This document shows, in pieces, positions 56,763 through 63,165 of a stretch of DNA of 64,000 nt (the first letter of the stretch is position 1; every line of letters begins with the position of its first letter). The DNA comes from Parasphingorhabdus sp. SCSIO 66989 (lineage in GTDB: Bacteria; Pseudomonadota; Alphaproteobacteria; Sphingomonadales; Sphingomonadaceae). Where the stretch lies: the NCBI RefSeq assembly GCF_032852305.1, contig NZ_CP136594.1, positions 1,277,501 to 1,341,500 of the forward strand, read 5' to 3'. Position numbers and translations under genes: made by a program. The notes below the pieces were generated by a model. The model ran no database searches. It was not told the origin of the DNA and was given only the letters and a program-made list of their open reading frames with translations.

Positions 56763-56848
56763 GGACAGGTGGCCGAGTGGTTAAAGGCAGCAGACTGTAA
56801 ATCTGCCCGCGTGAGCGTACGCTGGTTCGAATCCAGCCCTGTCCACCA
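56763..56848 (+). tRNA. tRNA-Tyr (GTA anticodon), probable phage attachment site
   Basis: 86 nt with encoded CCA. Anticodon loop CTGTAAA gives GTA; a long variable arm follows. T-arm GCTGGTTCGAATCCAGC; acceptor GGACAGG pairs with CCTGTCC. A tyrosine integrase lies 148 bp downstream on the same strand, so the 3' part of this tRNA is the likely attB/attL identity segment. A matching 3' fragment should occur at the other end of the prophage, outside the window. Confidence 0.97.
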
Positions 56849-56856
56849 ATTCCACT

Positions 56857-56981
56857 TCTCATACAGTCTCATACATTCTCAGCTACCATCTAAAATGCTA
56901 GAGAAACCTTGATTTTTTGTCCCAAGCGGTCTCATATAGTCTCATTGAAGCGCGACTCATTTGTTGGCTCTTTGTTGGCTC
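56857..56981. repeat. Helically phased TCTCATA repeats: candidate integrase arm-type sites
   Basis: TCTCATACA at 56857 and 56867, TCTCA at 56877, then TCTCATATA at 56930 and TCTCATTGA at 56940. All within each group are spaced exactly 10 bp. A second repeat, TTGTTGGCTC, occurs at 56961 and 56972. They lie between the tRNA end and the integrase start, where arm-type binding sites are expected. Confidence 0.65.
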
Positions 56982-56996
56982 TTTTTGGTGACGGAT

Positions 56997-58208
56997 ATGG
57001 CACTGACGGACTTGAAGATCAAAAACGCCAAAGCAGGTGGAAAACCATATCGACGATTATCTGATGGGGGCGGGCTTTATATCGAAGTGAGACCGAGCGG
57101 TCGGAAGACCTGGTTTCTCGCCTATCGCCGCGACGGCAAGCAAATGAAAGTCCGTGGCGGACCATATTCCGAAATGTCTTTGGCCGATGCTCGCTTTTGG
57201 CGTGAGAAGGTCAAAGCTGAAATTCGCGCCGGCAACTATCCCACTTCCGACAAGCCCGATAAAGACAAGCCCTCGTTTGAAACCATCGCCCGCGAGTGGT
57301 TCGAGTTGCAGCAGTCTAAGTGGACCAAACGCTATGCTGATATTGTGATAGGCAGGCTGGAGAATGACCCTTTTCCCCTCTTCGGCGACCGCCCCATTGA
57401 TGAGGTCTCGCATGAAGAGATTTTGTCACTGATAGAGCGAATGGAACAGCGCGAGGTTTATGACCTTTTGCGCAGAACTCTTCGTTATGTCAGCCGTGTA
57501 ATGCGCTATGCGATTGCGACCAAAAGGGCGTCCTATAATCCGGTCCCTGATGTCAATGACGCGCTCAAGCCTAAGCCTAAGACCCAACATTACAGGCAGT
57601 TGAGTCTAAGCGATCTGCCGGACTTCTATGCGAAACTGCGCAAGTCCAATCACAGTGAAACCGTGAAGCTGGCGTTGCAATGGACGATCCTCACTTGGGC
57701 CAGGACATCTGAGACGAGGTTCTTCCGCCCGGAGGAAATTGAAGGCCGCGATACTGACGAACTATTGTGGCGGGTGCCTGCGGATCGCATGAAGATGGGC
57801 AGGGAGCATCTAGTTCCGCTGCCGCGCCAAGCAGGCCCATTGCTGGATCGGATCGAAACCTTGGCGCAAAAGATGGGTAGCCAATGGCAGTTCGCCCAAG
57901 TTCGCAATGCTCTAAAGCCGATTGACGAAAACGTGATGCTCTACTGCTTATACGATCTGGGTTATCTCGGAAAAGCGACCGTCCATGGCTTTAGGGGTAT
58001 GGCGTCCACTTTGGCGAACGAGCAGGTCGATGCGAACGACATGCGCGTTTTCCACGAGGACTGGATTGAGCGCCAATTGGCCCATGTGGAAGAGAACAAG
58101 ATTCGCGGAGCGTATAACGCCGCCGAATACCTTGGGCCTCGTCGTAAGATGATGCAGTGGTGGGCTGATTTCCTTGAGGAGCAGCAGGGTTTCTCTGAGC
58201 TGCTTTAA
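56997..58208 (+). CDS. int: Phage tyrosine integrase (P4 type with DUF4102 domain)
   Basis: About 403 residues. N-terminal arm-binding domain MALTDLKIKNAKAGGKPYRR and DGGGLYIEVRPSGRKTWFLA. Core domain residues: Arg in TWARTSETRFFRPEEI, Lys in KMGREHLVPLP, HxxR in TVHGFRGMASTLANE, and the nucleophile Tyr in RGAYNAAEYLGPRRKMMQWW. It drives site-specific integration at the adjacent tRNA-Tyr. ATG at 56997 is chosen as it opens the conserved MALTD domain. Confidence 0.95.
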   Translation: MALTDLKIKNAKAGGKPYRRLSDGGGLYIEVRPSGRKTWFLAYRRDGKQMKVRGGPYSEMSLADARFWREKVKAEIRAGNYPTSDKPDKDKPSFETIAREWFELQQSKWTKRYADIVIGRLENDPFPLFGDRPIDEVSHEEILSLIERMEQREVYDLLRRTLRYVSRVMRYAIATKRASYNPVPDVNDALKPKPKTQHYRQLSLSDLPDFYAKLRKSNHSETVKLALQWTILTWARTSETRFFRPEEIEGRDTDELLWRVPADRMKMGREHLVPLPRQAGPLLDRIETLAQKMGSQWQFAQVRNALKPIDENVMLYCLYDLGYLGKATVHGFRGMASTLANEQVDANDMRVFHEDWIERQLAHVEENKIRGAYNAAEYLGPRRKMMQWWADFLEEQQGFSELL

Positions 58209-58328: not shown

Positions 58329-58556
58329 ATGCCGTATCAGAACGTCTCACATAGCGATCCCAAATGGATGCGCTTGCCCGAAGTGATTGAGGCGACGACT
58401 CTGTCGAAGGCCACAATCTATCGCAAGATGGACGCCGGTATCTTTCCGCAAAGCCATCGGTTGAGGGACATTCGGGCTGTCGTATGGTTTCGGGATGAAG
58501 TCATGAAGTGGAAGCGTGACCAGGTGGTTTCCGAGGGGATCGGAGACCTGCTGTGA
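58329..58556 (+). CDS. AlpA-family phage regulator / excisionase
   Basis: 75 residues with the MerR-like helix-turn-helix of AlpA: MRLPEVIEATTLSKATIYRKMDAGIFPQ and AVVWFRDEVMKWKRD. Such proteins control integrase expression or excision. It ends VSEGIGDLL, one of the shared acidic-leucine tails of this prophage. Its stop overlaps the next GTG start. Confidence 0.9.
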   Translation: MPYQNVSHSDPKWMRLPEVIEATTLSKATIYRKMDAGIFPQSHRLRDIRAVVWFRDEVMKWKRDQVVSEGIGDLL

Positions 58557-59926
58557 CGCGGGCGTATTACAATGAGATCGACCCCCATGCTGCTCAATGG
58601 CTCCGTAACCTCATTGATGCCGGTCTGATCGCTTACGGAGATGTTGATGAGCGTGACATTCGAGACATCAAACCAGTCGAACTTGCAGGCTACACCCAAT
58701 GCCATTTCTTTGCGGGCATCGGAGTCTGGTCCTACGCCTTGCGGCTCGCAGGGTGGCCAGATGAACGACCAGTGTGGACCGGCAGTTGTCCGTGCCAACC
58801 TTTCAGCGGCGCAGGCAAAAGAAAAGGGACTGCTGACGAGCGGCACCTATGGCCATTCTGGCACTATCTCATCGAACAGTGCGAACCTGGTGTCGTCTTT
58901 GCAGAGCAGGTTGCGTCGAAGGACGGACTCGCTTGGCTCGACCTTGTACAAGCTGACCTGGAAGGAACGGGTTACACCTGCGGGCCGTTCGATCTGTGCG
59001 CTGCGGGCTTCGGTGCGCCGCACATCCGCCAAAGAACCTTCCTCGTCGCCCAAGCCCAAAACGCAGATGAGCGGGTGGGTTACAACAACACGCGATTGGA
59101 AAGACAGCGAGGGGATGGCGCTCGAACGACCGGACGGGCGATCACGGATAGACCAGTTGCCGAGGCAGGCGGCGGTGGCAGGTTGGCCGACCTCCTCGGC
59201 GACGGATGGGAAGCGGGGCGGAACGCTGACCCCCAAAATGACGGGGAAGTCCCTGACCCAATCGGTGCAATTCAATCTCGCCGGTTGGCCGACAGTGACG
59301 GCGATGGACGCCAATCGGGGCAAGGGAACGATCAGAGCGCACGACACGGGGATACCGTTACCACAAAGAGCGTCGATGGCGGGTTGGGCCACTCCTCACG
59401 AGAACTCGACCACGGGGCCGGGGACTCAAGGGCGTTCGGGCGGAATGAACATTCAGACGATGACGCAGTTGTCGGGATGGAACACGGCAGCGGCATCGGA
59501 CGGGAATGGGGGCAAGAGACCTCACCCGGATACGTCAATGACAGGCAAACACCCGTCCGGCAGGAAAGTGAACATGGGCTTGGCTTCTCAGGTTCATTTG
59601 GGCTTTCTGAACAAAGAGGAGATGGAGAAGCACGGCCCAGCCCGACTAACGGCTTCTGGCGAGATGCTGACTGGCTCTTCTGCCGGGATGGAAAGTGGAG
59701 GCCAGTTGAGTCCGGCACATTCCCTCTGGTTGATGGGTCTGCCTATCAGTTGGATTCTGGTGGCCCCCTTGAGAGCAAAAACCGGGCGAACCTCCTCAAA
59801 GGCTTCGGTAACGCAATCGTCAGCGAGGTCGCGGCATACTTCATCGCCACATTCCTCGAACACGAGCAGGATGCCGCTTTGGTTAATGGCCGAAGCCATG
59901 ACGATCTGATCGGGGACTTGTTATGA
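58553..59926 (+). CDS. Phage C5-cytosine DNA methyltransferase
   Basis: 457 residues. Motif [20 protein letters not shown], motif [17 protein letters not shown] with catalytic Cys, motif VI as FAEQV, motif [14 protein letters not shown], and motif [18 protein letters not shown]. Between VIII and X lie about 170 low-complexity residues rich in G, D, R and H; in that span a second frame is open. The late part [20 protein letters not shown] is typical of phage-encoded members. It starts at GTG overlapping alpA and ends [11 protein letters not shown]. The target sequence is unknown. Confidence 0.92.
58761..59909 (+). CDS. Overlapping long reading frame inside the methyltransferase gene
   Basis: 382 codons in the other forward frame, wholly inside the methyltransferase gene. 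The frame is open from further upstream; ATG at 58761 is chosen because AGGGTGG precedes it. It reads [35 protein letters not shown] and [10 protein letters not shown]. Then come five units of the form (A/S)GW.T...D ([66 protein letters not shown]), and finally [19 protein letters not shown] recall this same protein pattern from other prophages, which favours true dual coding. Function unknown. Confidence 0.55.
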
Positions 59927-60630
59927 TGAGCGGGATTGACGACCTTCTCGGGACCAAGCCGCAAGAAGAGTCGGTGCGGGAGCGCCGGTTGAACAAACTT
60001 GCCAAGGATCGGGCGATCAAAGCCGCAGGCAGTGGGACTACCTTTGTTGAAATGGGCGCGTTGAAGCGCCCGGTATCAATGAATTTTCTCTCTGAGGTCT
60101 TCAACATGGACCCCAAGACGGTGCGGACCAGGTTGGTGCGGTGTCCCATTTTGGGAATGGCAGGCGGTAATCGCCCGGTTTATGATTTCAAGACTGCTTG
60201 CCAATATCTGCTGCCGCCCAAAATGACGACCGATGAGTTCATTCGGACACTCAACGCCGCCAAACTACCCCCGGAAGTCAACAAGGTGTTCTGGCAGGCT
60301 CAGCGCGAACGGTTGCGGTATTTGAGGGACGCCGGGGAAGTCTGGCACACCACCGATCTGCTCGACCTTCTCGGCCAGGTGAATATGACCTTCAAGGACC
60401 GCATTGATATGTGGGTTGAGGACATACGCGAGATGAAGGGTATCTCCGATGAGAATATCCTGAAAATCGAGCAGATGACCCATGCGCTGAAAAGCGATCT
60501 CTATGAGGCATTGGTCTCCATGCCATCGCAAGGGGAAACCCTTAGCCTGCGTGACAAGGAAGACCCGCTCGCCCCTGAGCAAAGCAAGAATACCGAAATT
60601 GACGAAGGGCAGATCAGCGATGCGCTTTAG
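59923..60630 (+). CDS. Phage terminase small subunit-like protein (DUF1441)
   Basis: 235 residues. An N-terminal [14 protein letters not shown] tag, then a DNA-binding-like part MNFLSEVFNMDPKTVRTRLV resembling the winged helix of Nu1-type small subunits, and a helical remainder. Position directly before the large terminase module and family resemblance support the call. Overlaps the methyltransferase stop (ATGA). Confidence 0.78.
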   Translation: MMSGIDDLLGTKPQEESVRERRLNKLAKDRAIKAAGSGTTFVEMGALKRPVSMNFLSEVFNMDPKTVRTRLVRCPILGMAGGNRPVYDFKTACQYLLPPKMTTDEFIRTLNAAKLPPEVNKVFWQAQRERLRYLRDAGEVWHTTDLLDLLGQVNMTFKDRIDMWVEDIREMKGISDENILKIEQMTHALKSDLYEALVSMPSQGETLSLRDKEDPLAPEQSKNTEIDEGQISDAL

Positions 60631-61051
60631 ACCGGAACAATATGACGCCGTAGCGAAGCGGATTGTCACCAACAACCCGAACATGCTTGTGCCGTGGTTT
60701 CTGATGGCGTCTTACGCCTATTACGAGAAGGACGATCCGTTCCTGACCGACTCCTTCTATGACAAGATGTGCTTAATGCTCATCAAACAGTGGGATCAGA
60801 TCGAACATCGCCACAAAACCTTCATCGATCGAGATGCGCTAGGGGCCGGATCAGCATATCATATCGACTGGTCCCAATTGCCGACGATCATAAAGGACGC
60901 GGCAGACCATCTTACAGCTAAGTACCACTCTTTAGCCACTATCGGTACACCCGCCCCAACCACATTAGACGATCTGCTCGGCGATGTTGCTGAGCCGGAA
61001 ACGATTGATGACCTGCTCGGCGGCAGTGTGAAGATTGACGACTTGCTATGA
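60620..61051 (+). CDS. Phage protein of unknown function with three DDLL motifs
   Basis: 143 residues. MASYAYYEKDDPFLTDSFYDKMCLML resembles the short N-terminal helix pair that precedes NAD-dependent ligase adenylation domains, but no catalytic motif follows. The C-terminal third carries TTLDDLLGD, ETIDDLLGG and KIDDLL as its last residues. It overlaps both neighbours (start inside the terminase small gene, ATGA with the large one), so it belongs to the packaging operon. The start is set at the first ATG after GAAGGG. Confidence 0.7.
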   Translation: MRFRPEQYDAVAKRIVTNNPNMLVPWFLMASYAYYEKDDPFLTDSFYDKMCLMLIKQWDQIEHRHKTFIDRDALGAGSAYHIDWSQLPTIIKDAADHLTAKYHSLATIGTPAPTTLDDLLGDVAEPETIDDLLGGSVKIDDLL

Positions 61052-63165
61052 AACTGCCCGAAGCCAGATTCAGTTCAATGGAGCATATCGTTGCCGCGTC
61101 GGCGGAGAGCGTTCGGCCCCCTGAAAGGCTAAGCGTGGCCGAGGCGTCGCAATATCATATCGTCAATAATCCCGGCTCCCATGTTGGCCCTTTCGATCTC
61201 AACAAAGCCCCATATCTCGTCGAGCCGATGAACGAACTGACGAGCCTTGATCTCAAGGGATTGGTGTTTGTCGGTCCAGCACGTACCGGCAAGTCAGCAA
61301 TGTTCATCAACTGGCTCTGTCATACCGCAATTTGCGATCCTGCCGACATGCTGGTGGTGCATATGACCCAATCGACAGCGAGGGACTGGTCGCAGGCCGA
61401 TCTTGATAAGGCAGTAAGAAACTCACCTGAGTTGCGCAGCCGCATGGTCCCTGGTCGGCAAAATGACAATGTGCATGACAAAGCATTTCTCTCAGGTATG
61501 CGACTGCTCATCAAATGGCCCTCAATCACCGAATTGTCAGGCAAAACAATCCCCCGTCAATTCATCATGGACTATGACCGCATCCCCGACTCTATTGGTG
61601 GTGAGGGTAATGCGTTTGACCTCACCAGGAAGCGCGGGCAGACGTTCAAGAGGCGGGCGATGTGTGCGGTTGAGTCCAGCCCAGGCCGAGAGGTCACTAA
61701 CCCCAAATGGATAGCCTCATCACCGCACGAAGCGCCACCGACGACCGGAATCCTCGACCTCTATAATCGCGGCGACCGACGCCGATGGTATTGGCAATGC
61801 CCGCAATGTCATGAGGCATTTGAACCATCCTTCGACAAATTGGTGTACCCGGATTCACGCGATCACATGGAAGCGGCTGAGCAGGTCGTCATGTGTTGCC
61901 CCCATTGCGGCTACACCATGGAACCAGACCAACAATACGAACTGAACCTCGGCGGTAAATGGATCAAGGACGGTGCCATTTGGTTGCCTGACGGCAGCGT
62001 CGTACCAAAGAGCGGTCACACCATTCGACGTAGCGGGATCGCTTCATTTTGGATGAAGGGGCCAGCCGCAGCCTTCACCACATGGAAAGAACTGGTGGTG
62101 AAGCACCTTGACGCTGTGGAAGCGTGGGAAAAGAACGCGGATGAGGAAGCCTTGCGCACCACAATCAACGTGGACCAAGGTGAGCCTTACATTCCTAAAG
62201 CCCTTGAAGCCGGAAGACTACCAGAAGAACTCGCAGCTCGTGCGCAGCATTGGGGCGGCACACGGACAGAACCAGTTGTTCCCGAAGGTGTGCGCTTCCT
62301 GATTGCTACGGTTGACGTGCAGGCTCGATCATTCGTTGTACAGGTCCATGGTATCGGCGTCGGCGGCGATGTTTGGCTCGTCGATATGTTCAAGATCAGG
62401 AAAAGCAACACTCGTCTCGATGACAATGGCGAGCATATGATCCTTGATCCAGCCGGTTACATTGAGGACTGGTCCACAATAACCGAAATGGTGATCGAGA
62501 AGACTTACCCTCTGGCCGATGACAGCGGGCGCCGGATGCAGGTGAAACTTGTCGGGTGTGACTCTGGCGGTAAGGCCGGTGTGACCGCACGAGCCTATGA
62601 GTTTTGGCGATCATTACGGGACGACGAGATCGGCCGGCAGCATCATAATCGCTTTCAGCTTATCAAGGGTGAGCCTTCACCCAAAGCACCACGTTACCGG
62701 CGTGACTATCCTGACTCCAAGCGCAAAGATCGTAATAGCGGTGCGCGGGGCGATGTACCTGTTGTCTTTCTGAACTCCAACACTCTCAAAGATCAGATCA
62801 GCGGTATGCTCAATCGCTCCGATGCAGCCGGTGGACGGGTGAACTTCCCGATCTGGTATGATGAAAGCGGCAAGCAGGTGGACATATCCTGGCTGTATTC
62901 TCAGCTTACCGCCGAGGTCCGGTCTGACAAGGGGTGGGTATCCAGCAGTGGGAAACGCAATGAAGCGTGGGACTTGCTCTATTACTGTGTCGGCCTTCTG
63001 CTTGATAGCCGGATCGCATTTGAGACGATTGACTGGAACAACCCGCCTGCATGGGCCGCTGAGTGGGACGTGAATACGCTTGTGTTTGAAGCCGAAGACG
63101 GGCCGCGATTCACAGAAACAACGAAGAAACGCGATTTAAGTAAGTTGGGCGAAATACTCGCTTAA
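61048..63165 (+). CDS. Phage terminase large subunit (GpA family)
   Basis: 705 residues. Motor domain with Walker A-like LVFVGPARTGKSAMF and a candidate Walker B RQFIMDYDRI. A zinc-binding insert is present (CPQCHEAFEPS ... CCPHCGYTME). The nuclease domain begins near FLIATVDVQARSFVVQV with further acidic sites in VKLVGCDSGG. It packages DNA into proheads. It starts at an ATGA overlap and is the last of the tightly overlapping early packaging genes. Confidence 0.94.
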   Translation: MKLPEARFSSMEHIVAASAESVRPPERLSVAEASQYHIVNNPGSHVGPFDLNKAPYLVEPMNELTSLDLKGLVFVGPARTGKSAMFINWLCHTAICDPADMLVVHMTQSTARDWSQADLDKAVRNSPELRSRMVPGRQNDNVHDKAFLSGMRLLIKWPSITELSGKTIPRQFIMDYDRIPDSIGGEGNAFDLTRKRGQTFKRRAMCAVESSPGREVTNPKWIASSPHEAPPTTGILDLYNRGDRRRWYWQCPQCHEAFEPSFDKLVYPDSRDHMEAAEQVVMCCPHCGYTMEPDQQYELNLGGKWIKDGAIWLPDGSVVPKSGHTIRRSGIASFWMKGPAAAFTTWKELVVKHLDAVEAWEKNADEEALRTTINVDQGEPYIPKALEAGRLPEELAARAQHWGGTRTEPVVPEGVRFLIATVDVQARSFVVQVHGIGVGGDVWLVDMFKIRKSNTRLDDNGEHMILDPAGYIEDWSTITEMVIEKTYPLADDSGRRMQVKLVGCDSGGKAGVTARAYEFWRSLRDDEIGRQHHNRFQLIKGEPSPKAPRYRRDYPDSKRKDRNSGARGDVPVVFLNSNTLKDQISGMLNRSDAAGGRVNFPIWYDESGKQVDISWLYSQLTAEVRSDKGWVSSSGKRNEAWDLLYYCVGLLLDSRIAFETIDWNNPPAWAAEWDVNTLVFEAEDGPRFTETTKKRDLSKLGEILA

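Follow-up and report, generated by a model that had tools for sequence, protein, structure and literature searches.

Overlapping reading frames of a widespread phage gene may encode the catalytic and recognition halves of one cytosine-5 DNA methyltransferase

In the 64,000-nucleotide stretch of Parasphingorhabdus DNA analyzed here, referred to as the window, a prophage C5-methyltransferase gene is overlapped on the same strand by a second long open frame in +1, and comparison with homologous loci indicates that this second frame is a real gene. We refer to the methyltransferase frame (frame 0) as alpha and to the +1-frame protein as beta. The locus probably specifies a two-subunit DNA (cytosine-5) methyltransferase whose subunits would be read from overlapping frames of one gene. 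In the arrangement we propose, alpha would supply the catalytic core with motifs I-VIII, plus a C-terminal motif X helix, and beta would have a separate start, at an ATG inside the gene that is preceded by a Shine-Dalgarno site. Beta would begin with a helix-hairpin, continue with an array of GWPTP modules, and close with a segment resembling motif IX. Because of these parts, beta would correspond to the small domain of the enzyme, the one that faces the DNA. For phages and prophages at large, we consider it a reasonable bet that this widespread gene encodes complementary halves in its two frames, one for catalysis and one forming an exchangeable array of recognition cassettes.

The last 7 kb of the window form the left end of a prophage (Table 1), for which a tRNA-Tyr gene (56763-56848) is the integration site. 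The 20-nt 3' end of this tRNA is repeated downstream in the same genome, which gives a prophage of about 56 kb, and the two copies are in keeping with attL and attR. Neighboring prophage genes repeatedly carry a short (I)(D/G)DLL(G) motif at their ends (58541-58556, 59896-59926, 59923-59950, and 60962-61051), with the AlpA-type regulator ending in EGIGDLL, alpha in HDDLIGDLL, and the ORF that follows the small terminase subunit in TLDDLLG..TIDDLLG..KIDDLL; the motif is also found at the start of the small terminase subunit.

Table 1. Features of the prophage end and of the two overlapping frames (window positions)
Feature	Position	Strand	Basis or remark
attL (last 20 nt of tRNA-Tyr)	56829..56848	+	direct repeat at G000:C1:1390593-1390612
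Prophage integrase	56961..58208	+	PF22022, PF13356, PF00589
AlpA-type regulator	58329-58556		
Alpha, C5-methyltransferase frame, GTG start, 457 aa	58553..59926	+	PF00145, phrog_363
GGAG Shine-Dalgarno-like site, 6 nt ahead of ATG 58647	58637..58640	+	
Beta, +1-frame protein, 420 aa from ATG 58647	58647..59909	+	open frame, homologue conservation, substitution phase, PHROGs 1008/31772
Alpha motif I (FFAGIG)	58706..58723	+	
Alpha motif IV (PCQPF, catalytic Cys)	58790..58804	+	invariant in A2
Alpha motif VI (AEQV)	58901..58912	+	
Beta N-terminal beta-hairpin	58947..59015	+	AF2; invariant residues
Alpha motif VIII (RQRTF)	59027..59041	+	
Beta module 1, proposed target-recognition cassette	59073..59180	+	module family common to many loci
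Alpha low-complexity, predicted disordered part over beta modules	59126..59770	+	AF2 pLDDT 30-50; substitution phase
Beta module 2	59181..59282	+	such module families in other loci
Beta module 3	59283..59381	+	such module families in other loci
Beta module 4	59382..59474	+	such module families in other loci
Beta module 5	59475..59630	+	near match in locus L169
Beta motif-IX-like segment	59703..59753	+	hhalign to RLAPAFSEWMMGWPAGW of single-chain methyltransferases
Alpha motif X (GNAI)	59807..59818	+	frame 0 to core in nearly all resolved overlapped loci
Terminase small subunit	59923-60630		
ORF, reads as large terminase subunit	61048-63165		own sequence and position

Residues 75-185 of alpha match PF00145 (E 1.6e-14), a profile match to HhaI was obtained at E 2.7e-14, and motifs I, IV (PCQ), VI, and VIII were all located, which identifies a C5 DNA methyltransferase core. 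Sequence matches to HhaI and HaeIII were limited to this core, and no motif IX or target-recognition domain was recognizable in the chain that carries it, the region in question being of low complexity and predicted to be disordered. The AF2 model of alpha comprises only the core, with a pLDDT of about 90, and a C-terminal helix; residues 192-420 mostly score below 50. The C-terminal block of 24 residues is conserved in the alpha frame.

Within residues 1-135 of alpha (58553-58960), the motifs run in the order II-III (YYNEIDP...GDVDER), I (CHFFAGIG), and IV (PCQPFS), such that motif I is shifted behind II-III relative to HhaI or to gp70 of phage ShiLan. Hhalign placed alpha residues 3-35 on motif II-III of single-chain methyltransferases and skipped the motif I block. 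This order differs from the natural circular permutation in which motifs IX-X come first (PMC5944983).

On the same DNA, the +1 frame is open from 58629 to 59909, or 426 codons, so the first-pass annotation, which had reported a methyltransferase frame of 457 codons and a +1 frame open for more than 380 codons, was correct about both frames and understated the length of the second. The likely start of beta is ATG 58647, with ATG 58641 as a possible alternative. The +2 frame is closed throughout, its longest open run being 49 codons. Codon permutation of the window sequence alone gave a mean +1 run of 233 codons (p = 0.008), which makes the observed run only moderately unusual, so a comparison across the family was needed to decide whether the frame is a gene or an untranslated by-product of composition and methyltransferase conservation. 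This by-product explanation is favored by the window-only p value, by the high G+C, and by the apparent conservation that a conserved core lends to any frame overlapping it.

We gathered 160 viral loci, half of them retrieved through the methyltransferase frame, which kept this half free of selection for the second frame. Over methyltransferase residues ~40-400, the +1 frames of 141 distinct loci contained two stop codons in all, while the +2 frames of the same loci contained thousands. Stops are therefore not scattered through the second frame of the homologues, which had been named as the outcome that would speak against the gene, and the overlap is conserved as had been presumed. Since stops are missing over exactly the start-to-stop span of beta in these 141 loci, this result is difficult to reconcile with a by-product of composition. 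The longest +1 run was 344 codons compared to 162 expected from synonymous-codon permutation of the same 141 loci, and the +2 frame had no such excess. The ATG of beta together with a Shine-Dalgarno-like site was present in 69 of 97 loci, compared to 14.7 +/- 3.7 expected from synonymous resampling, an enrichment that composition would not produce. In single-chain homologues of similar or higher G+C, which served as a control, +1 stops were not depleted (143 vs. 159.5 expected), so homologues of equal G+C lack the pattern, and the +1 frame is also open in the L164-like group, whose median G+C is 0.53.

Synonymous constraint, the other check suggested on first pass, was strong. The alignments underlying the conservation statistics are of good quality for the core but only approximate for the modules. 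The entropy at alpha third positions was about 1.5 bits before the overlap, 0.5-1.0 within it, 0.28 near the C-terminus of beta, and 1.6 past the beta stop. Among 67 close pairs, the share of substitutions falling at alpha position 3 was 76% before and 61% after the overlap; within it, the share was 52% for the core, 23% for the modules, and 31% for the C-terminal part, a positional pattern that again argues against a by-product. In the module region of these pairs, 52% of substitutions were at alpha position 1, corresponding to position 3 in beta, and changes that were nonsynonymous in the methyltransferase and synonymous in the alternative frame numbered 2252, compared to 815 for the reverse. 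The choice of Asp codon in the overlap was likewise polarized by site, one site using GAT at a frequency of 1.00 and another site of the same genes at 0.02. The stop, start, and codon-choice results are independent of the module alignment.

Taken together, the comparisons across homologues reveal selection on both frames, as in a dual-coding gene, and show beta to be conserved, under selection at the protein level, and furnished with start signals of its own. A translated protein accounts for the +1-frame data, whereas neither a by-product of composition nor a signal at the DNA or RNA level does, and beta is most likely translated. At the level of the family, the by-product explanation is already refuted, and we regard it as hardly credible.

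The substitution data also bear on the direction in which one frame shapes the other. On either side of the overlap, evolution of the methyltransferase frame is that of an ordinary gene, and within the catalytic core the two frames are both constrained. Because substitutions in the repeat region fall mostly at third positions of beta, the second frame dominates there, and the direction of shaping in this region, as judged from the substitution pattern, is that of beta upon alpha. The earlier suspicion that one frame had shaped the other thus proved well founded, with the low-complexity part of the methyltransferase as the part that was shaped. The overlapping beta would explain the "disordered" low-complexity stretch of alpha, a member of a common phage methyltransferase family.

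The peptides quoted on first pass as ordered features of the +1 frame were found in beta, the five (A/S)GWxT units standing at the first positions of the five modules (Table 1). The N-terminal part of beta, which a helix and hairpin conclude, is conserved; residues G103, L106, T110, W111, K112, and T116 in the hairpin region are invariant, and the family shares a conserved end, QLNPAHSRWLMGLPxxW. With a mean pLDDT of 52.7, the AF2 model of beta is poor and confident only in this helix and hairpin, and a Foldseek search with this model, which was too poor for the purpose, returned nothing significant. A sequence search of the PDB with the beta profile returned chance matches only, and beta has no family in Pfam or NCBIfam; PF00145 does not match it. 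Beta is matched by PHROGs 1008 and 31772, where it is filed as DNA methyltransferase. These two families, phage K1G ORF30, and Xanthomonas phage PhiXhv-5 bear out the first-pass statement that similar peptides are annotated elsewhere. K1G ORF30, labeled "Mte8-like", is a homologue of beta and is annotated as nested in the methylase gene (ORF31/ORF30). Such annotation of the overlap, as for K1G ORF30 and PhiXhv-5, has been case by case; the PHROG and K1G annotations give "DNA methyltransferase" or no role, and the meaning of the overlap is not stated. Our literature searches on this overlap found no paper describing such an arrangement.

A search for the modules, in which a consensus served purely as a probe, led to phages of Mycobacterium, Streptomyces, Arthrobacter, Propionibacterium, and Rhodococcus. 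In gp70 of Mycobacterium phage ShiLan and gp68 of Mycobacterium phage Hamulus, one chain runs from the core through LLPTPxAxDG modules and RLAPAFSEWMMGWPAGW to the motif X segment IIGNGVVPQQA. These actinophage enzymes have modules homologous to those of beta and an EWMMGWPAGW motif IX, yet all their parts lie in one frame without a conserved +1 frame. Their modules and motif IX are fused to the core between motifs VIII and X, the interval in which target-recognition domains belong. The beta profile aligned to the module and motif IX part of these single-chain methyltransferases (95.5% probability, E 1.6e-8) and the alpha profile to their core (99.2%, E 9.5e-20), and PF00145 covers one single-chain member almost end to end. 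These profile alignments show beta to be homologous to the module and motif IX region of single-chain methyltransferases. By the position inferred from these relatives, the five modules of beta would lie between the equivalents of motifs VIII and IX, on a chain separate from the core. Since the relatives carry modules and motif IX in one chain with the core, beta is most simply read as the recognition half of the enzyme, an identity that the first-pass annotation had not proposed.

Beta could instead be a real protein with a separate task and not a target-recognition subunit at all; it might, for instance, bind restriction enzymes of the host or regulate alpha. It is strongly basic (mean pI 9.9), as many nucleic-acid-binding proteins are, and the conserved C-terminal block of alpha could by itself be a small recognition element. 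However, this would leave the in-frame fusion of modules and motif IX to the core in actinophages without a reason, and alpha has no motif IX, and we consider a separate task unlikely. We infer, in keeping with beta as the recognition half, that both proteins are made, that they bind each other, and that beta sets the specificity.

Four architecture classes emerged among the homologues when the modules, motif IX, and motif X were each assigned a frame with the core as reference. In the first, modules and motif IX are in +1 and motif X is in frame 0; the fully resolved loci of this class number 240, and the L164-like group is among them. By eye, the same class is seen in epsilon15, N15, K1G, LASTA, and the T4-like phage Delraymugoa. 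In the second class, found in Streptomyces phage Darolandstone and its relatives, only the modules are in +1, and motifs IX and X are both in frame 0. The third is a split gene pair with modules, motif IX, and motif X all in +1 (Arthrobacter phage Andrew gp43/gp44), and the fourth has everything in one frame, as in ShiLan. The split or overlapping part is nearly always in +1 relative to the core.

This geometry raises the question of whether alpha core and beta modules become a single fusion enzyme through programmed frameshifting, given that a +1 shift past motif VIII would restore the single-chain order of core, modules, and motif IX. Such a shift would have no use for the conserved ATG and Shine-Dalgarno site of beta, which lie far upstream of motif VIII, nor for the constraint on beta through the core, which a late frameshift does not need, and motif X is again in frame 0. 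We consider a frameshift fusion very improbable and retain two separately initiated subunits as the preferred reading.

Several loci deviated in other ways. In L424, L434, L435, and L436, modules and motif IX were scored as +2 to the core, because of an indel or because their architecture is genuinely shifted. Judging by its sequence, the methyltransferase of L252 (Propionibacterium phage B22 gp50, 1-1980) carries an intein-like insert right ahead of the catalytic Cys (CFVAGTSVLTHDGLRPIEDVQVGD ... VVHNC). In L131, a stretch resembling an HNH endonuclease (CETCGTLFQRK...CEFCGSPSSLVIHHVDEDWTNN) follows the motif IX block in the beta frame, ahead of the usual C-terminus, and both overlapping ORFs are longer.

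The overlap is present in 80 bacterial genome loci, 15 plasmid records, and hundreds of phage contigs and records. When the 80 genome loci were searched for a standalone beta, beta was always in the +1 frame wherever a core was recognized, and most loci lacking a recognized core still had an overlapping ORF of about 400 codons; because of these residual overlapping ORFs, we do not claim a freed copy of beta.

We next consider the modules as arrays. In total, 159 arrays contained 403 modules, with GWPTP modules measuring about 38 residues (30-45) and arrays holding 1-5 modules, mostly 1-4 and usually 2-3; the window locus has 5. The same module families were found at differing positions within these arrays. 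Of 704 pairs of loci that share a module at an identity of at least 80%, 497 were pairs in which each locus also had a module lacking a counterpart in the other, and in 300 the shared module was at a different position. Comparing module identity with core identity as a sign of recombination told us little, since the alpha core varies too little for this purpose, and the array comparison was used in its place. Mosaic arrays of this kind would be expected if specificity elements were exchangeable, as in the multispecific Bacillus phage methyltransferases. In our proposal, each module would be one target-recognition cassette, and several modules would allow several sequences to be methylated and thereby escape from several host restriction enzymes, again as with the Bacillus phage enzymes; the equation of one module with one specificity is the more speculative part.

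The nearest precedent is M.EcoHK31I (YGGCCR), whose beta ORF reportedly overlaps its alpha gene in a different frame as well. This enzyme requires two polypeptides, a large one with motifs I-VIII and X and a small one with motif IX (PMC3404938), and when likened by published motif layout, the partition of motifs between alpha and beta is the same here. The predicted target-recognition domain of M.EcoHK31I is placed in the large subunit (PMC3404938), whereas here recognition would reside in beta, in the form of an array of exchangeable modules. M.AquI is split such that one polypeptide holds the core and the other the distal part of the variable region with motif IX (PMC3404938), motif X being in the small subunit, a form shared by Arthrobacter phage Andrew gp43/gp44. 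In contrast with M.AquI, motif X here stays in alpha, in frame 0 with the core.

In the phage orphan enzymes of SPR, SPbeta, phi3T, and H2, the interval from motif VIII to motif IX houses several modules for target recognition. Multispecific phage C5-methyltransferases are one chain in one frame, whereas the array described here occupies a second, overlapping frame. The multispecific Bacillus phage methyltransferases are the subject of Wilke 1988 and other papers cited in PMC8936443. Against this background, the new element suggested by our comparisons is a two-polypeptide C5-methyltransferase whose putative recognition subunit is a cassette array in an overlapping frame.

Long same-strand dual-coding genes have rarely been proven in DNA phages, and the present overlap exceeds 1.2 kb. 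Both frames seem to contribute to a single enzyme, which links overprinting directly to the evolution of protein subunits. For annotation, it would mean that two PHROG families and many phage entries labeled "DNA methyltransferase" either are the second subunit or lack it, and recoding the synonymous codons of the annotated methyltransferase frame during cloning would destroy beta. If the proposal is true, specificity would evolve by the shuffling of modules, with the catalytic frame left with a disordered linker over that region, and the four architectures (overlapping, partly overlapping, split, and single chain) would record the taking apart or re-joining of an enzyme. It also yields a testable prediction for how phages may alter their methylation specificity to escape restriction.
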